Of a stretch of DNA of 59,449 nucleotides, positions 1,113-58,364 are shown piece by piece. Each line of letters begins with the position of its first letter. Position 1 is the first letter of the stretch. Origin of the DNA: a virus. The notes beneath the pieces were generated by a model. It was not told the DNA's origin and did not search any database. It saw only the letters and a program-made list of their open reading frames with translations. Position numbers and translations under genes: made by a program. The stretch spans positions 1 through 59,449 of the IMG/VR virus record IMGVR_UViG_3300020202_000084, one strand, 5' to 3'.

Positions 1113-1502
1113 ATGGAAGTTTATGAGTTCCCTATGTGCTGTGCTGCTACTGTGTTTGCTAATTTTGGCAGCACTCTAGTAGTCCATAATCCGGACGAGA
1201 ATAAAGAACTCGTCTTTGAGAAGAATGAGATTAGACACTGGTTGAGCAAGCATCTTGCACCTTATGCGATGGCCGGTAATGGCGAGCATTATATTAAGAA
1301 AGATGCCTTTGTCTGCATTACCCTCAATGACGAACAACGTTCAAAGTTCGGAGATGTAATAGAAGAATTTGGTTTCAAGGAAGTGGCAAGAGGGACTAAT
1401 GCAAAATACTTGCACAATCATGTGACGCTATTTGTCAAAATCATCAACTCGGCCCCTCCATTCGTTAAAGCGGGAAGCGCTAATGACCAAATTACTTATT
1501 GA
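1113..1502 (+). CDS. 129-aa protein of unknown function, first gene of the amidoligase cluster
   Basis: ATG 1113 follows AGGAAGGA at good spacing. The product begins MEVYEFPMCCAA, has paired Cys near its start and a mixed alpha/beta pattern with no membrane segment. I do not recognise a family. It overlaps the next gene by 20 bases, which ties it to the gamma-glutamylcyclotransferase and the rest of the peptide-chemistry cluster. It could be a modification substrate or a small accessory subunit, but that is only inference from position. Confidence 0.65.
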   Translation: MEVYEFPMCCAATVFANFGSTLVVHNPDENKELVFEKNEIRHWLSKHLAPYAMAGNGEHYIKKDAFVCITLNDEQRSKFGDVIEEFGFKEVARGTNAKYLHNHVTLFVKIINSAPPFVKAGSANDQITY

Positions 1503-2202
1503 CACCATCCGGGATGAGCTTCGGCCAGGCGATGGTGTTTTAGTAGAATTGACGTATAACGAGTGGGATTGGGGATATGTCACTATGGTGACTGAGACCG
1601 GTTTTATGGTGGAGTTCTGGCCGAAAGATGGACAGAAGTTTCAACAGCTTTGCCCTAGGGACACCGTCTATCCAGATGACTGGAACTTCCCCGACTATAA
1701 AGGAGAGGCACCTAAGAATAAGGTGTCTGCTGTTCCTTCTACGGCAGTAGCGATTTATCAGAACGCCAGCAACACCAGCAGTTTTCATCCCACTGAGCTT
1801 CCTGATGACGACATGTATGTCTTTGTCTATGGCACTCTGAAGAAGGGCGGTCGATTGAACAAGGCGTTGGCAGAATGCCAATTTATTCAGAAGGACATTA
1901 CAGCTGACAAGAAGTTCAACATGTTCAGCTGCGCGGACAGGTTCCCTGCTGTGTCCACTTGGAAGGGTAAATACCATATTGCTGGAGAGATTTACAAGAT
2001 CACTCCGGAAGTTCTGAAGCGCTTGGATGCGCTTGAGGGTGTTCCTCATCTCTACAGGCGTGACACCGTTTGGACTAAGGGGTTTGACAAGCTCTGCTAC
2101 ATCTACATGTCCAGCCTCAAACTAGAGAACGTATACGAAAACGAATACGGCTCCAAGATTTTCCTTGACGAAGAGAACCATGCACAATTCTGGGTGAACT
2201 AG
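1483..2202 (+). CDS. gamma-glutamylcyclotransferase-like protein with an extra N-terminal domain
   Basis: The C-terminal half (about residues 110-239) is a gamma-glutamylcyclotransferase (AIG2/GGCT) domain: the substrate loop YGTL is at 116-119 and the catalytic Glu is E185 in LDALEGVPHLY. Such enzymes release 5-oxoproline from gamma-glutamyl amines or peptides. The first 100 residues form a separate small domain that I do not recognise. ATG 1483 lies inside the previous gene and follows GGGAAG. Neighbours are amidotransferases and ATP-dependent COOH-NH2 ligases; in such gene sets this enzyme is thought to trim or recycle gamma-glutamyl linkages made by the ligases. Confidence 0.85.
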   Translation: MTKLLIDTIRDELRPGDGVLVELTYNEWDWGYVTMVTETGFMVEFWPKDGQKFQQLCPRDTVYPDDWNFPDYKGEAPKNKVSAVPSTAVAIYQNASNTSSFHPTELPDDDMYVFVYGTLKKGGRLNKALAECQFIQKDITADKKFNMFSCADRFPAVSTWKGKYHIAGEIYKITPEVLKRLDALEGVPHLYRRDTVWTKGFDKLCYIYMSSLKLENVYENEYGSKIFLDEENHAQFWVN

Positions 2203-2454
2203 ATGGTCACTTGGCAGACTAGCAAAGAGTGGTGGGGCAAATCCGCTGTTGCCTACCATAAGGATATGAAGGCTTCTATTCAGGAGATGGATGGCAAGTG
2301 CTTCTGGTATATCCGAGAAGATGAGGAAGTTGTAGCTAGAGGCGTCATTCAGAACACGCTAGAAGCAGCAATGGACTACGTTGCTGGCAAGCTCTCGTGG
2401 CTTTCTTGGAAACACAATTTACGGAGACTCATTCATGGACCTTCCGCAGCTTAA
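2203..2454 (+). CDS. 83-aa hypothetical protein
   Basis: ATG 2203 follows directly after the stop of the cyclotransferase gene, with no free spacing, so translation is probably coupled. The product is Trp-rich at its start and has a strand-rich middle that may be a small barrel-like fold. No family is recognised. It overlaps the next gene by 20 bases and is transcribed with the amidoligase cluster. Confidence 0.6.
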   Translation: MVTWQTSKEWWGKSAVAYHKDMKASIQEMDGKCFWYIREDEEVVARGVIQNTLEAAMDYVAGKLSWLSWKHNLRRLIHGPSAA

Positions 2455-3382
2455 GAAGCTCCCCACTTTTCATCGCCATGTGCAGCATCCCAATAAGATG
2501 GGTCCGTGGGATAATAACTTCAAATACGACTGTTACGAATCTACTCATAAGGGTAAGAAGCGTATCAGTAAGAAGGAACTGATGCAGCGCACGGAAGAGG
2601 CGTTGGCCTGGCTGCGCTCCAACGCTGGCTATAGTCCCTTCGGTTTCGTGTTCACTGACGGAACTTACGACTGCTACCCCAGCAATGAATGTCTGGGGCT
2701 TATCAATTGCACAGAACGTATCTGCCGTGACAAGCCGGTTGCATATTTCATCACAGCTGTGGGCAATCATAAAAGCACCGATGCTGCCTATATTAGAGGT
2801 GTTGATTGGCTGATTAATCGCAGCCCGTATGCCAAGGTGTTCGTCACCAAAGACGCCAAGAGTGCCATTGATAACGGCGTCATCATGAACACTGAGCACA
2901 ACGTGGCCCTTAATGTTGCGTCTGCTGCGATCTACCGTAACATGTATGGCATTGCCAAGAACATGTCTTGCTGGTGGGACCATATCCCCGAGGATATCGC
3001 CTTCCTCTTTGCACATTATTTTCATCCTATTAGTGAGACTGCTGTTCGCTTCTCCGACGAATACGATTGGAGCAGCACGCTTGGTAAGAACATCGGTGTG
3101 GATGGCATCAAGCGTTTCGTTACTAGGGACTGCTCGCTTCATGACACCACGCCTATGAGGGATAAACCCTATCGTTATGGTGACTTTATGCATCTCTGGC
3201 GCACTACTGATAGCAAGGTGCGAAAGCCATTCAAGCCTAAGACTTCTACACTAAAAGTCACTCACGAAGGCTGGGGAGGGAAGCAGTATACCTACACATA
3301 TGAAAATGCCATCGATCTAACTGACATGAAGAAAGCGTGTGACAGCTTGATGGAGCAGATTGGATATCCGTATGCCAGCTAA
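2435..3382 (+). CDS. 315-aa unknown protein of the amidoligase cluster
   Basis: ATG 2435 has GGAG at good spacing and gives a 315-residue soluble protein. It contains FTDGTYDCYPSNECLG near residue 75, several His-rich stretches (CSLHDTT, AHYFHP) and a beta-rich C-terminus. I cannot place it in a family. Its overlap with genes on both sides and its position between a cyclotransferase and a class I amidotransferase make it a probable working part of the same pathway, perhaps a transferase or a substrate-binding subunit. It is the largest unassigned protein of the cluster. Confidence 0.75.
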   Translation: MDLPQLKKLPTFHRHVQHPNKMGPWDNNFKYDCYESTHKGKKRISKKELMQRTEEALAWLRSNAGYSPFGFVFTDGTYDCYPSNECLGLINCTERICRDKPVAYFITAVGNHKSTDAAYIRGVDWLINRSPYAKVFVTKDAKSAIDNGVIMNTEHNVALNVASAAIYRNMYGIAKNMSCWWDHIPEDIAFLFAHYFHPISETAVRFSDEYDWSSTLGKNIGVDGIKRFVTRDCSLHDTTPMRDKPYRYGDFMHLWRTTDSKVRKPFKPKTSTLKVTHEGWGGKQYTYTYENAIDLTDMKKACDSLMEQIGYPYAS

Positions 3383-4037
3383 AAAAGTATTCATCATCAA
3401 TAGCGACGAAGCTACTGATAAGATGTTCCTGAGCATGAAGTGGGAGATAGTGAGCAACCCTACTCAGGCAGACATATTCCAGTTCACTGGCAGTGGTAAC
3501 AGCGATGTTGATCCTGCGCTTTATAATGAGCTGCAACATAAAGCCACTTTCACCGATCCTGGTAGAGACAAGCAGGAAGCCATCTATTACAAGATTGCTA
3601 AGCAGCGTGGCATCCCAATGGCTGGCATCTGCCGGGGTGCTCAGTTCCTTTGCGTCATGAATGGCGGTTGGTGTTGGCAGCATGTCAACAACCACGACAA
3701 CAAAGAGCACTACGTCACTGACTGGGATACAGGGGAGATCTACCTAGCCAACTCAGTGCATCATCAGATGATGCGGCTCCCTCGCAACAGGGCCACCATC
3801 CTTGCTACAGCTGGTGAAGCCACTTGGAAGGAATGGGTGAATAGCAGGGGTAATGAATGCACATTTACCTGCAATCCCAAGCATGTGGCCGATCCGGAGG
3901 TTGTCTTATTTAAGGACACCAAATGTCTGTGTGTGCAGTATCATCCTGAATATTCAGGCTGGAGTGCCTTAGTGTCTCGGTATTTTAACCTGATTGAGCA
4001 ACATCTATTCTCTAAGGAAGAATCATGTGCGGCATAG
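3372..4037 (+). CDS. class I glutamine amidotransferase / gamma-glutamyl hydrolase-like protein
   Basis: The 221-residue product has the class I amidotransferase triad: C87 in GICRGAQ and H191/E193 in QYHPEYS. It lies nearest the peptidase C26 type, which cleaves gamma-glutamyl amides or supplies ammonia. ATG 3372 overlaps the preceding gene by 11 bases; the 3' end overlaps the class II amidotransferase gene by 13 bases. Having both a class I and a class II glutaminase-type enzyme together suggests two distinct gamma-glutamyl steps, for example ammonia supply and hydrolysis of a gamma-glutamyl intermediate. Confidence 0.85.
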   Translation: MPAKKVFIINSDEATDKMFLSMKWEIVSNPTQADIFQFTGSGNSDVDPALYNELQHKATFTDPGRDKQEAIYYKIAKQRGIPMAGICRGAQFLCVMNGGWCWQHVNNHDNKEHYVTDWDTGEIYLANSVHHQMMRLPRNRATILATAGEATWKEWVNSRGNECTFTCNPKHVADPEVVLFKDTKCLCVQYHPEYSGWSALVSRYFNLIEQHLFSKEESCAA

Positions 4038-5236
4038 TCGGAGTGCTGGGTAAGATTGGAAAGTCTAGGCTCAGCATGTTTGAGGATATGCTGACGATGG
4101 ATGCAGTGCGGGGGAATGATAGCACTGGAGTGGCTGTCATTAATAAAGAAGATGTTTGGTGGGGCAAGGATGTTGTGCTGCCCAACGGCATCTTTGATTG
4201 GCAGGACTACAAGGATGCCAAGAAGGCCAAGCCCTTTTGCCTGATCGGACACAACAGAGCTGCTACTCGTGGCGCTATTAAGTCCGATAATGCTCATCCG
4301 TTTCAGCACGGACACATTACTCTTGTCCATAACGGCACGTTAGATGCAGCTTGGCGTCTTCCTAATTACTGGAAGTTTGGCACGGATAGTGAAGCTATCG
4401 CCTATGCTATTAGCCAACACGGGATTGAGACGGTGTGGCCTGTCATTGACGGTGCTGCTACCTTGGTATTCTGGGATGACAAAGAGAAATCCCTGAATGT
4501 CATCAGTAACAATAAGAGACCGTTCTTTATGCAGCCATTCCCCGGTTCAACCGGGATTGTGTGGTCTTCTGAGAGATGGACCTTGCTCACCGCCGCTGCA
4601 AGGACAGGAGTGGTGCTGGATAAAACAGAAGAAATATTCACCACTAAGTCAGATGTCTTATATACCTTTCTGTATGATCCCGATACAGACAAACTAAAGT
4701 ATCGGGAGAAGAAGCTGGAGCCTTATAAGGTAGGTAATAGTATCCCTGGATATCAGGCTCATGTTCCTGCATCTTATAAAAAAAAGAAAAAGAAAAGGGC
4801 GAAAAGTGCTACTGCGGATATTATACCGTTCAAGAGTGCGAGAGCATCTGCGGAGGTGTTTGGTAGTGCAGAGTGTTTTGCTGAGTGGCAGCAGCGTCAG
4901 CTAGATAAGGTGCAACCTAAGGACAACGGGACGGACGCGGACTTAGACACCCGCGCTGTGCCCTTTCGCGGTCCATACAAACAAACCGAGAAACCTACTC
5001 GAACGGCTGAAGAGTTTTTTCGGCTATTTGATTTGACAGAACTAAACCCTAAGAGCTGCACTCCAGAGTGGTTTATGGCTGCCTATCCCAATTGCTTTGG
5101 CTGTGACGGTAGCATGGACTATTCAGATTATTTCACTGCAAAGATTATGAGTTCTACTGCTGCTCTATGCAGCGATTGCCAGTGCGATATTTGGGTTACA
5201 TCCGGTATCGACCCTAATAACATCCGACAACACTGA
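4025..5236 (+). CDS. class II (Ntn) glutamine amidotransferase with Cys-rich C-terminal extension
   Basis: The start MCGIVGVLG puts the catalytic Cys at position 2, as required after Met removal. GHNRAATRG and LVHNGTLDA are the usual glutamine-loop motifs of the GlmS/AsnB N-terminal domain, spanning about residues 1-245. A Lys-rich linker follows, and then a 130-residue tail with CFGC and CSDCQC clusters that could bind zinc. No AsnB synthetase or GlmS isomerase domain is present, so this is a stand-alone glutaminase that would hand ammonia or a glutamyl group to a partner ligase encoded nearby. A typical AAGGA ribosome site precedes it. Confidence 0.85.
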   Translation: MCGIVGVLGKIGKSRLSMFEDMLTMDAVRGNDSTGVAVINKEDVWWGKDVVLPNGIFDWQDYKDAKKAKPFCLIGHNRAATRGAIKSDNAHPFQHGHITLVHNGTLDAAWRLPNYWKFGTDSEAIAYAISQHGIETVWPVIDGAATLVFWDDKEKSLNVISNNKRPFFMQPFPGSTGIVWSSERWTLLTAAARTGVVLDKTEEIFTTKSDVLYTFLYDPDTDKLKYREKKLEPYKVGNSIPGYQAHVPASYKKKKKKRAKSATADIIPFKSARASAEVFGSAECFAEWQQRQLDKVQPKDNGTDADLDTRAVPFRGPYKQTEKPTRTAEEFFRLFDLTELNPKSCTPEWFMAAYPNCFGCDGSMDYSDYFTAKIMSSTAALCSDCQCDIWVTSGIDPNNIRQH

Positions 5237-5243
5237 GGTAAGT

Positions 5244-6050
5244 ATGACTCCTGAGCTACTAATCGGAGCGGACCCTGAGCTGTTCCTCCGAGAGAAAGGT
5301 CTATTGGTTTCTGCGCATACTCTTTTGCCAGGCAGTAAGCAGTATCCGCATGAAGTTCCGTTGGGTGCAGTGCAGGTGGATGGAACTGCTGCCGAGTTCA
5401 ACATTACTCCAGCTGCTTGCGAGGACGAATTTGTCCTGCATATTAGTCAAGTGTTGGGCACACTTCAAGAGATGCTTAAGCCGGGGGTAGAATTGGACAT
5501 CTCCCCTGTGGCTGAGTATCCAGAAGAATATATGTCGTCGCTGCCCGGCTATGTAAAGAAGCTGGGCTGTGATCCTGACTTCAATGCATACACCAAGGAT
5601 GCCAATCCAAAGCCGAATGAACACCCAACTATGAGAACTGCCGCTGGTCACATTCATGTTGGCTGGGGTAAAGACCTTGACACTCGGGATTGGAAGCACT
5701 TTGAAGCGTGCTGTGTTCTCGCCAAGCAAATGGACTTCTGGGTAGGTCTGCCTAGCACCATTCTTGATCCAGACACCAAGCGCAAGCAGATGTATGGAAA
5801 GGCAGGAGCCTTCCGTCCTAAGCGCTACGGTATGGAGTATCGAGTAGCCTCTAACTGGTGGCTGAAGGATAGCGGCACCATGAGGCTGGTCTATTCAAAT
5901 ACCAAGTGGGCTTTCAACACACTGAATGACGGCATCATGCTGTGCCAAGAGCATGGAGATGTAGCCCGAGACATCATTAATAATAATCAAGTAGACGAAG
6001 CTAAGAAGCTTTGTGACAAGCTGGATATCCCTTATTGGCCTTTGGTTTAA
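5244..6050 (+). CDS. phiEco32-type COOH-NH2 ligase (type 2 amidoligase)
   Basis: The opening GADPELFLREKG and the later HIHVGWGKD and YRVASNWWLKD are hallmarks of the phage COOH-NH2 ligase type 2 family, a glutamine-synthetase-like fold that uses ATP to join a carboxylate and an amine. The acidic and His residues in these motifs are the expected metal and phosphate ligands. The 268-residue length fits a single-domain member. It sits 7 bases after the amidotransferase gene. The substrate is unknown; the family was named from phage phiEco32, which also carries its own ECF sigma factor, as this phage does. Confidence 0.88.
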   Translation: MTPELLIGADPELFLREKGLLVSAHTLLPGSKQYPHEVPLGAVQVDGTAAEFNITPAACEDEFVLHISQVLGTLQEMLKPGVELDISPVAEYPEEYMSSLPGYVKKLGCDPDFNAYTKDANPKPNEHPTMRTAAGHIHVGWGKDLDTRDWKHFEACCVLAKQMDFWVGLPSTILDPDTKRKQMYGKAGAFRPKRYGMEYRVASNWWLKDSGTMRLVYSNTKWAFNTLNDGIMLCQEHGDVARDIINNNQVDEAKKLCDKLDIPYWPLV

Positions 6051-9290: not shown

Positions 9291-9658
9291 TCGGAAGGTT
9301 TATCGTTCTCAACACTATCGGAGCGGGCCTGCTGGTAGCTGCTTATTTTCTAGGCATCCTCCCGCAACTACTATCAGTGGACAAGTGGTTCGCCATGCCA
9401 GGTATGGGTGTTGTAACGCTCGTAGGGCTGGTGCTGGTGGCTCGTAAGCGCCTTGATGACGCCGAGTGGCTCCACAATCACATGCCCCTCCTTGGCCTTC
9501 TATTGACCGTTCTGGGCACTGTTGTGGGAGCCATTCATTTTCGCACTACGGGGGACTACAAGGCATTCCAGATGGATGTCATTACGGCCATGCTGGGAAC
9601 TCTCTCGGGGATGCTCAGCTATCTCTGGCTCAATCTTAACTTAAAGGTGCTGAGATGA
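9287..9658 (+). CDS. ExbB/TolQ/MotA-like inner-membrane protein
   Basis: The 123 residues contain four hydrophobic segments (about 5-25, 38-52, 66-84, 93-112). The third carries PLLGLLLTVLGTVVGAI, close to the PLLGLLGTV signature of ExbB/TolQ/MotA proton channels, and the fourth has the small-residue pattern ITAMLGTLSGML seen in their last helix. It is shorter than bacterial ExbB. The following genes encode a 29-residue membrane peptide and a single-span protein with a membrane Asp, matching the usual channel-partner order. Motor function is inference. Confidence 0.65.
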   Translation: MIGRFIVLNTIGAGLLVAAYFLGILPQLLSVDKWFAMPGMGVVTLVGLVLVARKRLDDAEWLHNHMPLLGLLLTVLGTVVGAIHFRTTGDYKAFQMDVITAMLGTLSGMLSYLWLNLNLKVLR

Positions 9659-9744
9659 TGAGTGTCTGGGTTTTAGTTGGTTTACTAGTTATTGCCGTTT
9701 TTCTTTTAGTCGCGTTGCCGCTTTATCTAGGATTGAGAAAATGA
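9655..9744 (+). CDS. 29-aa single-span membrane peptide
   Basis: ATG 9655 overlaps the previous stop and TGA 9742-9744 overlaps the next ATG (ATGA on both sides). The peptide is almost wholly one transmembrane helix with a basic end. It may be a small subunit of the ExbB/ExbD-like complex. Confidence 0.6.
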   Translation: MMSVWVLVGLLVIAVFLLVALPLYLGLRK

Positions 9745-10322
9745 AACTCTGGTCCCCACAGGCCATTGCTACAATCGACATGCTCTATTGCCTAGTGGCT
9801 GGGCTAATTGTGCTGATGGCGGAGCCCTCTCCTAAGATTGCCGCCGCAGACAAGCCCATCTGTCAGCTGGCTGTGGATGTTAGCTGGCCCAATGGAACTC
9901 CGGTGGATGTAGACCTGTGGGTGAGGGCACCTAGTGACAAACCTGTTGGGTATTCCGCCAAGGATGGGGCTGTCTTTAATCTGGTGAGGGATGATCTTGG
10001 GACTATTTACACGGCTGACGAAAGCAACTCTGAGAGAGCTTGTGCTCGCTTCCTTGCTGATGGCGAGTGGGTTGTTAATCTGCATCTATACAATTCCGGG
10101 ATTGATCCCCCTATTCCGGTGGATATTACCGTTTCCCTTGTTGATCCATCGGCAGCTACCATGACCCCTATCTTAGAACGTCATGTAGTCCTCCAGAAGA
10201 AGGGGCAGGAACTTACTGTAATAAGGTGGAAGATGAAGGACGGGAGAGTAGTGTCCGGTAGTGAACACGATATCCCTGTGCCATTGCGGCATGGGAGTAA
10301 TAATCCAGGAGTGCACCCATGA
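9741..10322 (+). CDS. ExbD/MotB-like single-span protein with periplasmic beta domain
   Basis: The 193-residue protein has one N-terminal membrane helix, ATIDMLYCLVAGLIVLM, with Asp13 near its start, as in ExbD, TolR, MotB and ZorB where this Asp carries protons. The periplasmic part from residue 40 contains VDVDLWVRAP, which resembles the DUF2135/YfaP beta-sandwich rather than a peptidoglycan-binding OmpA domain. It follows the ExbB-like gene and a 29-residue membrane peptide with ATGA overlaps. A phage-encoded ion-driven envelope machine is the most attractive reading; a simple exclusion protein is the alternative. Confidence 0.65.
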   Translation: MKLWSPQAIATIDMLYCLVAGLIVLMAEPSPKIAAADKPICQLAVDVSWPNGTPVDVDLWVRAPSDKPVGYSAKDGAVFNLVRDDLGTIYTADESNSERACARFLADGEWVVNLHLYNSGIDPPIPVDITVSLVDPSAATMTPILERHVVLQKKGQELTVIRWKMKDGRVVSGSEHDIPVPLRHGSNNPGVHP

Positions 10323-10369: not shown

Positions 10370-10548
10370 AACACGCTGTTCACCGCACCAGTCCGAAGGG
10401 GCCTGGCCAGAAGTTCATCGGCCGATGTGTCAACTGCGGGATGCAGAACCTACCAGCATCGGCGGCGCTTGAGGACTGTCCGAACTTGCGCGGCGTCACT
10501 CAGGATGAGGCGCTGATCGAGGCTATCACCGGAGAGACCCATGAGTGA
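10366..10548 (+). CDS. 60-aa Cys-containing protein
   Basis: AGGAGGATGAG precedes ATG 10366. The product has CVNCG and one further Cys (DCPN), a half zinc-finger arrangement often seen in small phage proteins. It overlaps the Lar-like gene by 8 bases. The stretch 10.36-11.2 kb is visibly richer in GC than its surroundings, which suggests recent acquisition. Confidence 0.6.
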   Translation: MKHAVHRTSPKGPGQKFIGRCVNCGMQNLPASAALEDCPNLRGVTQDEALIEAITGETHE

Positions 10549-53142: not shown

Positions 53143-53349
53143 TGTGGATAGGTGACAGCACGTCACAGCAGATAGGCCGGAAGATATAGGTAAGAGTTGC
53201 CTAGTAATAGCGTGACACTAAGTCACGACTAAGACTATGACTTATCTAGACTAATTTAGTCGTGACATGTCGTAACAGAATGTGGATAAGTCAATTGACA
53301 GGGAGACTGAATAGGAGTAATGGTTAACCTGTGACATGGCAGTGTCACA
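53143..53349. other. candidate replication origin / operator array
   Basis: Two DnaA-like boxes lie here: TGTGGATAG (53143-53151, one mismatch) and TGTGGATAA (53281-53289, the exact reverse complement of TTATCCACA). Between and around them are four inverted repeats with GTGAC/GTCAC arms: 53152-53166, 53211-53227 (CGTGAC-5-GTCACG), 53262-53276 (one mismatch) and 53330-53349 (TGTGACA-6-TGTCACA), and the palindrome GACTAATTTAGTC at 53249-53261. A promoter lies inside at 53295-53323. No gene is present. Confidence 0.5.
53295..53323 (+). promoter_or_regulatory. sigma70-type promoter inside the operator array
   Basis: TTGACA (53295-53300), 17-base spacer, TAATGG (53318-53323). It lies between GTGAC/GTCAC inverted repeats at 53262-53276 and 53330-53349, so it may be repressed through them. 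The first downstream gene is at 53633. Confidence 0.55.
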
Positions 53350-55087: not shown

Positions 55088-55126
55088 AAAGCCCCTTAGA
55101 GCGTTTCTGAGGGGCTTTTTCTTTTC
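55088..55126 (+). terminator. rho-independent terminator
   Basis: GCCCCTTAGAGC (55091-55102) and CTGAGGGGC form a stem with a TTTTTCTTTT tail. Its left arm is identical to the terminator at 52.99 kb. Confidence 0.85.
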
Positions 55127-56187: not shown

Positions 56188-56397
56188 ATGCTCAGTCCAG
56201 ATAAACTGCGAATTTACCGCAGTCACGGTGAACACTACCAGGCTTTGCAGCAAGAGTTGGCCAAAGCCAAGGCTCACATCATGGAATCCGAAATCGAAGC
56301 TGGGTTGCAAGTTGTAACTCAGACTGCACGGGGTTATCTCAAGCGTACAACAATCGCCTTGATTGGCCGTATGGCTATCAGGGACTACAGCCGATAA
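56188..56397 (+). CDS. 69-aa helical early protein
   Basis: ATG 56188 follows AAAGGATGCGCC. The product is mostly helical: LRIYRSHGEHYQALQQEL, then EAGLQVVTQTARGYLK and a basic end. No family is recognised. It lies between the two structured non-coding blocks. Confidence 0.55.
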   Translation: MLSPDKLRIYRSHGEHYQALQQELAKAKAHIMESEIEAGLQVVTQTARGYLKRTTIALIGRMAIRDYSR

Positions 56398-56487: not shown

Positions 56488-57057
56488 ATGGAACGTGCGA
56501 TTTTTGACAAAAAGCGGGAATCTTTCCGCAAGTCCATCACTCGGACCAAGGATATGGCCATTGAGTTGGCCGTGGCCGCTCTTGCGCAGTTTAAGGCGCA
56601 TGGCGACCTGTCCTATGTCCAAGACTTCTATGGCGACCTGCGTGGTGCGGGCAAGAACGTGATTCGTTCGGCTCCGTTCCTCGCCTGGCTCACCACCTTT
56701 GCTCCGGTGGAGTTGAAGGAGAACAAGTTCGTGAAGGATCACGACTTGGCCGCCAAGCTCAAGTGGGACGAGAAGGACGCCGAAGGCAACTATCCGGCGC
56801 GTGAGGCGTTGTTCGCCAAGGCGCAGGAGAAGTCGTTCTTCGATTTCGCCCCTGAGCAGGTGGCGCAGAACTTCAAGGCCGGTGATTTGGTCGAAGCGGT
56901 CGAGAAGCTCATCAAGCGTTACGAGAACAGCAAGCATTTCGTGGCTGCCGATGAGGAAGCCAAGAACACGCTTGTTCGGCTGAAGGACGTGGCCAAGACG
57001 CTGCGTGCTCCGGCTGCCAACAGCAATGGCTCCCTGCCGATTGAGCAGGCTGCCTAG
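56488..57057 (+). CDS. 189-aa early protein
   Basis: GAAGGAATAGC precedes ATG 56488. The product is soluble, helical and charged, with KFVKDHDLAAKLKWDEKDAE and a Leu/Lys-rich C-terminal half. GC content rises strongly in its second half and codon choice is unlike the AT-richer neighbours, suggesting high expression or transfer. I recognise no domain. The structured RNA block starts directly behind it. Confidence 0.65.
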   Translation: MERAIFDKKRESFRKSITRTKDMAIELAVAALAQFKAHGDLSYVQDFYGDLRGAGKNVIRSAPFLAWLTTFAPVELKENKFVKDHDLAAKLKWDEKDAEGNYPAREALFAKAQEKSFFDFAPEQVAQNFKAGDLVEAVEKLIKRYENSKHFVAADEEAKNTLVRLKDVAKTLRAPAANSNGSLPIEQAA

Positions 57058-58160
57058 TTACCCTCACCAGGCATCTTAGGGTCGCGCCCTGAGCGACGAG
57101 TGAAATCGTGACAAGACGGGAGAGACCGTCACATCCATTGCACCCGAAAGGGGACTGGGCTATCCGGCCCCTAATTGGGCTAGCAGATTGCACTTGGCTT
57201 GTAGATGATGGCTTTCTCATTAAGGGCTGCTAAACAGCCTTATAAGCCAAGACCCTGATAGGAAATAGAACATGGGCAGCTACCGGCCCGTCAAGGCGAC
57301 TGTAACGGGTAGCACGGCCTAGCTGTAATGGAGCAGCTTATGCGAAGTAACTAATCCCTGATTTGTTATAGCTCAGATAGTTGTAAATTGAATCGCTGCT
57401 TTTGTTTGTGAGGCACCCGAGAGGAAACTTTGGACACTCTCGGGTGTTCTCTTGGTCATTCTCGCCAACACAGCTGGTAGCGTTTGCGTAACTCCACAAA
57501 CGCAAGTAACACAGATAGGGACTATAGCCGTTTCCAGTGGAAACCGATTCTGGGTAATAGCCCAAATGCTAGCTTCTGTGGCTGTGTTGGCGTGAGTGAC
57601 TAGCTATGCAACGGCAGTGAACCCGTTTGAGTCGGAAGCTGACCTAGATAGAAAGCGCTCTAGTCACTCTTCCTGTTAGGGAACGAATGCCGATGGGACT
57701 ACATGGCAAAAGAAGTCTCATCACCCTTAGTCGTTCCCTAGCTTTTGTGCCCGATGGTCCCACACCCAGAGTGTGACGAATGGACTGCTTTTATGTAAAG
57801 CTAGGCGATCTAGAGCGCACCTAGCCATCGGGCTCTTATTATGCGCAGGTGCCAGTGAGGCTGGCTTAAATCCAGATGACGCCGATGGAGCCTGCGAGGA
57901 TGACAACACAGGGTATTTACTCCTGCACACTTGGCTAGCGCGCCTCGTGTTCAACTGGTAATACGTCGTGGTATCCAGAAAAGCCGGTTATACTCGTGCC
58001 GGATACGTTAGGTGTGCAGGCGTAAGCATCCACTAGGGTGGCTGAGCGGGAAATGCCATCTAAATCATGCCTATTAACAACCGGCATAGCCCTAGTGTCG
58101 CGGTGCCCTCCGAGCCAAATGGGGTTGAGGGTTAAATGACTGATCTGATTCGCTAGTCAG
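57058..58160 (+). ncRNA. 1.1-kb structured non-coding block B, candidate large ornate RNA
   Basis: No convincing gene lies between 57058 and 58160, yet consecutive nested inverted repeats fill it: CTTGGCTT/AAGCCAAG (57193-57251, inner hairpin), 10 bp at 57414-57446, 12 bp CGCCAACACAGC (57463) with GCTGTGTTGGCG (57592) enclosing three hairpins, 10 bp at 57594-57669, 10 bp at 57677-57740 enclosing an 8-bp stem, 9 bp at 57749-57833 enclosing two or three hairpins, CGCAGG/CCTGCG (57844-57896), CACTAGGG/CCCTAGTG (58031-58097). A tRNA gene follows 11 bases later. This resembles phage GOLLD/ROOL-type RNAs, which also lie beside tRNA genes. Confidence 0.55.
57414..57453 (+). terminator. hairpin with pyrimidine tail inside block B
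   Basis: CACCCGAGAG (57414-57423) pairs perfectly with CTCTCGGGTG (57437-57446), followed by TTCTCTT. It can be a terminator or a helix of the large RNA. Confidence 0.45.
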
Positions 58161-58171
58161 CCGCAAGTCTT

Positions 58172-58247
58172 TGGGATGTAGCTCAGCAGGTAGAGCAGCA
58201 GACTGTTACTCTGTAGGTCCTAGGTTCGAGCCCTAGCTTCCCAGCCA
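58172..58247 (+). tRNA. tRNA-Asn (anticodon GTT)
   Basis: The 76 bases fold as a cloverleaf: T-G acceptor start with one U-U mismatch, D arm GCTCAGCAGGTAGAGC, anticodon stem GCAGA/TCTGT with loop CTGTTAC, variable loop, T arm with GGTTCGAGCC, and an encoded GCCA end. The anticodon GTT reads Asn codons; the sequence resembles bacterial tRNA-Asn. It could supplement the host or, with the integrase, be part of an attachment site. Confidence 0.92.
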
Positions 58248-58254
58248 AATAAAA

Positions 58255-58280
58255 AGGGGCACCTGTTAGGGCACCCCTCT
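58255..58280 (+). terminator. terminator after the tRNA
   Basis: AGGGG (58255-58259) pairs with CCCCT (58274-58278) across a 14-base loop, followed by CTTGTT. It closes the rightward early unit before the leftward regulator gene. Confidence 0.5.
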
Positions 58281-58364
58281 TGTTAGCTGTTCCTCAGAAT
58301 GACGCCAGAGGATTTAATGGGAGCAGGCGTATGCCTGTAGAAAAGGTGATAAAACTCCCAGCAG

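Follow-up and report, generated by a model that had tools for sequence, protein, structure and literature searches.

How a phage comes to carry more than a kilobase of densely folded sequence directly between a protein-coding gene and a tRNA gene is the question raised by positions 57058–58160 of the IMG/VR virus record IMGVR_UViG_3300020202_000084, the whole 59,449-nt stretch of which we analysed and refer to as the window. The interval starts at the first base after the stop codon of a gene for a 189-aa protein (56488–57057, + strand; phrog_1448, function unknown) and stops just short of a tRNA-Asn (GTT) gene (58172–58247, + strand), the last gene of the unit. A first-pass annotation had suggested that the interval is a gene-free giant phage RNA, either a member of the GOLLD or ROOL families or a new class, citing its length, its ornate folding, its phage origin and the adjoining tRNA. 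The phage origin is borne out by the viral record, the tRNA adjoins the interval as described, and we found no convincing coding frame on either strand: 3′ of the 189-aa gene there is no + strand open reading frame (ORF) of at least 50 codons with a good Shine-Dalgarno (SD) site, and the sole coding candidate is a 60-codon GTG ORF on the − strand.

The structure itself is dense and real. The interval contains 10 perfect stems of 8 bp or longer, with arms no more than 150 nt apart, against 1.8 expected from dinucleotide shuffles, and 4 of at least 10 bp against 0.1 expected, counts that none of 300 shuffles reached, and the bin 57201–58300 holds the most perfect stems among all 1.1-kb bins of the window. 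The 993 nt from 57058 to 58050 fold at −392.9 kcal/mol, compared with −334.8 ± 10.6 kcal/mol for shuffled sequences (z −5.5). Since native sequence folds somewhat better than shuffled sequence, we took the phage's own background from 78 windows, each 520 nt long, along its genome (mean z −1.04, SD 1.60). Against that background the gene-free first half on the + strand is extreme, with z −5.9 for 57140–57659 and −5.25 in another estimate for 57140–57660, whereas the second half (57651–58170) gives z −2.5, which falls within background. Only the first half of the ~1.1 kb is thus exceptionally folded.

All seven stems that the first-pass annotation listed, each of 8–12 perfect pairs, are found on the + strand at precisely the positions given there. 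Four of them lie in domains given pair probabilities of 0.93 or more when the whole transcript is folded: a 10-bp perfect hairpin, CACCCGAGAG/CTCTCGGGTG, at 57414–57446 (1.0); a long closing stem of 22 positions (19 Watson-Crick (WC) and 2 G-U) at 57453–57602 (mean 0.95), which holds a perfect 12-bp stem (57463–57474/57581–57592, span 57463–57592) and inner hairpins; a 12-pair closing stem at 57675–57742 (0.98), the perfect part of which is 10 bp at 57677–57740 and which encloses the hairpin GATGGGACT/AGTCTCATC; and a 9-bp closing stem around three possible hairpins at 57749–57833 (0.93), cloverleaf-like in outline and not a tRNA by the tRNA search. To these can be added the closing stem TTACTCCTGCACAC/GTGTGCAGGCGTAA with its extension at 57911–58031 (mean 0.84). 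The other three listed stems compete with longer ones and have probabilities of 0.04 or less once flanks are included. They are a perfect closing stem of 8 bp, CTTGGCTT/AAGCCAAG, around inner hairpins at 57193–57251 (0.04), the 5′ arm of which competes with a gene-enclosing repeat; the 10-bp closing stem with inner hairpins at 57594–57669 (~0), the 5′ arm of which overlaps the outer pairs of the 57453–57602 stem as an alternative pairing; and the 8-bp closing stem CACTAGGG/CCCTAGTG at 58031–58097 (0.02), which competes with its neighbours. The same fold mis-folds tRNA-Asn, so its stem probabilities serve as a guide only and the low values are weak evidence against these three stems.

Two observations indicate that the structure belongs to an RNA with the sequence of the + strand, on which the upstream genes and tRNA-Asn also lie. 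Within the stems of 57193–58097, scored with G-U and A-C given equal weight, 10 G-U pairs on the + strand stand against 1 A-C mismatch, and each of the six ORF-free segments tested between 51.5 and 58.2 kb folds better as + than as − strand. There are thus signs, at the level of sequence, that folding on the + (transcribed) strand is under selection.

The region is structured from 57058 on, as had been proposed, but 57058 is not where the structure begins: folding continues upstream through two ORFs. Four of the window's strongest inverted repeats (span at most 2.5 kb) lie within 51.8–57.6 kb. The strongest (56436–56460/57177–57201, + strand; 23 WC and 1 G-U of 25; mean pair probability 0.90) encloses the 189-aa gene together with the three-hairpin element described below, and its score exceeds those of all 60 shuffled windows. 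The second strongest (56149–56173/56408–56432, + strand; 23 WC of 25) encloses a 69-codon ORF (56188–56397) and was equalled in 1 of 60 shuffles; in the whole-transcript fold these two gene-enclosing stems reach 0.89–0.90. The fourth strongest (51866–51889/52206–52229, 24 nt, 21 WC) carries the start codon of an ORF (52219) in its second arm, a possible long-range translation switch. Two further + strand segments are as strongly folded as 57058–58160 itself, each beyond all 100 shuffles: the ORF-poor segment 55685–56187 of the same putative operon (z −4.55) and the ORF-free segment 53161–53632 (z −7.07), which even surpasses 57058–58160, has no Rfam match, and lies upstream of an intrinsic terminator-like hairpin (55088–55118, + strand) that separates the unit from the preceding genes. 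Three strongly folded stretches thus lie in ~5 kb, with small ORFs and terminators in between. The reported kilobase is therefore one of three such stretches and, because folding runs on upstream across ORFs, a giant RNA would have no natural 5′ end here. Far from this zone, the window also carries a cluster at 1432–6050 encoding a gamma-glutamyl cyclotransferase, glutamine amidotransferases and a carboxylate-amine ligase (phrog_2520, phrog_7218, phrog_3815), a possible cassette for base modification or peptide ligation.

Expression of GOLLD rises at lysis, and the RNA forms a 14-mer nanocage. ROOL and GOLLD are phage RNAs found near tRNA islands (PMC12286853), and the region studied here likewise lies in a virus record beside a tRNA gene. 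It is also large and ornate, as is GOLLD (RF02032), many examples of which exceed 800 nt, and it shares with ROOL (RF03087) the character of a large structured phage RNA. Membership in either family, however, is not supported. The GOLLD model, which represents the conserved 3′ region, has no match in the window at the gathering threshold or at E ≤ 10, and neither has the ROOL model, at E ≤ 10 or in a family search; in the region itself tRNA-Asn alone matches Rfam, whether the gathering threshold or a relaxed one is applied. A true GOLLD in another phage fragment (L011) is picked up at 190 bits by the same search, a positive control for that family, whereas the ROOL family search, having matched no genome, comes without one. 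Nor did we find a homologue of 57140–58171 in cultured phages (blastn), in 22 major-head-protein relatives or 6 DNA-polymerase relatives (DNA searches), or over 0.8 Mb of loci (nhmmer/blastn), bearing in mind that several of the head-protein relatives are fragments and that the collections may omit records very near the window. The head-protein relatives have structural genes in common with the window phage, and not the 57-kb zone; searches through the 189-aa protein and the carboxylate-amine ligase yielded no confirmed relatives. The kilobase is thus an orphan structured RNA region that resembles the large phage RNAs beside tRNA genes and stands outside the known families.

The first ~60 nt of the region, immediately 3′ of the stop codon that ends the 189-aa gene, are different. 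A weak blastn match of 53 nt in Rhizobium phage B1VFA, where it adjoins the 5′ side of a tRNA-Cys, led to a three-hairpin RNA element at 57068–57139 (+ strand; covariance model R1, 89.7 bits, E 4e-24), present once in the window. It consists of GGCAUC, hairpin A (57075–57093, loop UCGCG), an invariant core CGACGAGUGAAAUCGUGAC (57094–57112) within which lies hairpin B (57096–57109, loop GUGAAA), hairpin C (57115–57130, loop GAGAGA) and then AC. Pattern scans found it in 21 viral contigs; phage B1VFA and one Shinella plasmid that is likely a phage-plasmid carry it too. It occurs once per genome in about two dozen (24) phage or phage-plasmid records, and model R1 found one copy per record in 23 of 23. 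Because one of the search patterns contained the 19-nt core, the invariance of the core among those matches was imposed; the first pattern, which left the arms of hairpin B free, still returned the same arms in all seven true matches. Divergent copies with GUGAC and hairpin C but without hairpin B were seen in plasmid pLM21S1 of Sinorhizobium, in a jumbo phage record of 308 kb and in G029, which is related to the window phage through its major head protein. The jumbo phage record (L127) has several such copies among tRNAs and a permuted alphaproteobacterial-type tmRNA (727–1021). An exact core match in a bacterial genome (L094, the one found) lacks hairpins A and C and was set aside as chance.

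An alignment of 22 rows folds into the three hairpins, and 9 of their 15 pairs are changed on both sides with pairing kept; 97.1% of cells are paired, a value that falls to 26–51% when one side is slid by 1–3 columns. Hairpin A has many G-U cells and no A-C cells. Covariation with other phages, which had been proposed as a check on the whole region, is strong for the element, the part of the region for which related sequences were found. Covarying as it does across independent genomes, and having no Rfam match (E ≤ 10) and no exact counterpart in the literature searched, the element appears to represent a new class of phage RNA, one that comparison of aligned sequences supports solidly. Theta (HDV-like) ribozymes are likewise small RNA elements next to phage tRNA genes (PMC10879173), but they form a double pseudoknot, whereas the element folds as three simple hairpins by a method that predicts no pseudoknots, and it has no HDV-type Rfam match at E ≤ 10.

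The genes beside the element are unrelated from locus to locus (DNA polymerase, primase/helicase, ribonucleotide reductase, RIIA, major head protein, integrase, antirepressor), so the idea that a shared neighbour would name its function had to be given up. It lies mostly within early or replication gene clusters, often mid-operon rather than at an operon start, with no consistent promoter or terminator around it; in eight or nine records tRNA genes are close by. In 13 of 22 loci an upstream ORF stops 15–36 nt 5′ of the core, and in about eight a start codon preceded by an SD site lies 56–90 nt 3′ of it, counts that are suggestive only, since some of the ORFs are short. In L011 the element (10378–10449) follows the GOLLD RNA (9388–9849, with a tRNA-Arg inside) by ~530 nt, in a fragment that also has a twelve-tRNA cluster; their co-occurrence is a lead, not membership. 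The idea that strong RNA folding invariably follows the element was also rejected: in six other phages the sequence downstream of it gives z of +1.0 to −1.6. Since the ORF-free sequence 3′ of the element is mostly not unusually folded elsewhere, the element and a folded tail do not regularly go together, the strong folding of the kilobase is special to the window phage, and the element, which stands alone between unrelated genes in other phages, is not the signature of a giant RNA. A partial parallel is found in G029, where 246 nt near the divergent element give z −4.6.

Taken together, these findings lead us to favour, tentatively and at somewhat less than even odds, the reading that the kilobase forms the structured 3′ untranslated portion of a short operon that has tRNA-Asn as its last gene, with a conserved cis-acting RNA element at the head of the kilobase. 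Transcription of the + strand would run from the terminator at ~55.1 kb to just past tRNA-Asn at ~58.25 kb, and the transcript would fold into successive closed domains, at first two that enclose small ORFs and then gene-free ones, with the tRNA at the end. The put RNA of phage HK022 suppresses termination in cis by binding the zinc-binding domain of the RNA polymerase β′ subunit. It is a cis antiterminator RNA of ~70 nt that needs no protein factor (PMC9378689), and it is the closest working model for the element, which would likewise be a 60–70-nt hairpin RNA in phage early transcripts, positioned in cis; the differences are that put has two hairpins to the element's three and that the element sits within operons. 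Host factors tend to end transcription where translation stops. An element acting in cis on the transcribing polymerase or the nascent transcript, and so keeping polymerase going as put does, would explain a position right after a stop codon; polymerase could then continue past the translation stop, through the folded untranslated kilobase, to the tRNA, and the function of the element is perhaps antitermination-like by this analogy. Long inverted repeats enclose transcript units in rRNA operons too, where they act as processing stems; the repeats of the window enclose two small protein genes, and their cleavage by RNase III is putative. Host RNase III and RNase P may cut the long stems and the tRNA ends, releasing stable structured RNA pieces. 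The operon-tail reading draws on the excess of folding and its bias to the + strand, on an element that covaries, is widespread and lies after a stop codon here and in many other loci, on the gene-enclosing repeats and on the terminators that bound the preceding genes. Against it count the mid-operon position of the element in many phages, the fact that the folded tail is not its fixed partner, and the lack of a sigma-70 promoter close upstream. Counting against it as well, model R1 run over HK022 (25.0–40.7 kb) did not find the put sites (best hit 12.9 bits at ~35.2 kb, near Q and not at PL or PR), and by this measure the element shows no similarity of sequence or structure to putL or putR.

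A possible but somewhat less probable reading is that the region is, after all, a single functional noncoding RNA of ~1 kb, a new class in the manner of GOLLD and ROOL that would be abundant, stable, possibly self-assembling and made beside tRNA genes. Its length, its dense, closed, multi-branched domains with z −5.5, its phage origin and its tRNA neighbour count in favour of this reading, and the element at its 5′ end recurs near tRNA genes and after a real GOLLD. The absence of a homologue of 57140–58171 in anything searched, the unexceptional second half, the upstream continuation of folding and the solitary occurrence of the element in other phages all argue against it. We consider it unlikely that the whole 53–58.3-kb zone is a new-class multi-domain giant phage RNA, with ORFs held in loops closed by 25-bp stems, ordered untranslated domains and the three-hairpin element in the lead, an element that diverse phages (Rhizobiaceae phages and phage-plasmids included) place in tRNA or early regions and of which a jumbo phage has a divergent form.

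More doubtful still is a trans-acting small RNA, in which the ~60-nt element would be processed from the 3′ UTR to act on a host factor and the tail would be a passive spacer. One copy per genome, unrelated neighbours, a nearly invariant core and the position right after stop codons are consistent with such an RNA, as is a terminator-like hairpin with a run of T after the element in one locus (L007). The absence of a consistent promoter or terminator speaks against it, and the folding of the tail would be left unexplained. It is very unlikely that the repeats act at the level of DNA, as a replication origin, packaging site or recombination hot spot: there is one element per genome, often near replication genes, and an exact DnaA-box sequence lies at 53281–53289 within the folded segment 53161–53632, but base pairing follows the rules for RNA with the sequence of the + strand, and the turning points of the cumulative GC skew are at ~52 kb and ~26 kb rather than 57 kb. 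A near DnaA box is present at 53143–53151; boxes are not enriched in the window, and a DnaA-driven origin was rejected on that ground. The least probable source of the region is a set of decayed tRNA genes from a former tRNA array, a notion that several closed 64–85-nt domains with inner hairpins beside the tRNA, and T-arm-like fragments after the element in Rhizobiaceae phage-plasmids and related contigs, might suggest, but ARAGORN and the Rfam tRNA model find tRNA-Asn alone even at E 10 (the closed domains 57594–57669, 57749–57833 and 58031–58097 give no match) and perfect 8–12-bp stems would not survive decay. A separate repeated hairpin, TTTCGCCCGAATGGGCAAC, was seen beside tRNAs in stretches poor in ORFs, in one Rhizobiaceae phage-plasmid and in uncultivated phages (L096:6000–6900, L034:8060–8250, L041:7860), with T-arm-like fragments nearby; the exact 17-mer is found in 16 viral contigs, and in L040 its arms are changed yet pairing (GTCC GAAT GGAC).

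GOLLD and ROOL, the large phage RNAs near tRNA genes, are structurally spectacular and their function is unexplained. If the region is indeed a large RNA of this kind, it would be a third, unrelated one near phage tRNAs and would suggest a general phage strategy. The three-hairpin element, for its part, is a compact and testable RNA (single copy, near-invariant core, covarying arms, no Rfam entry), and Rhizobium phage B1VFA provides a cultured system that carries it.
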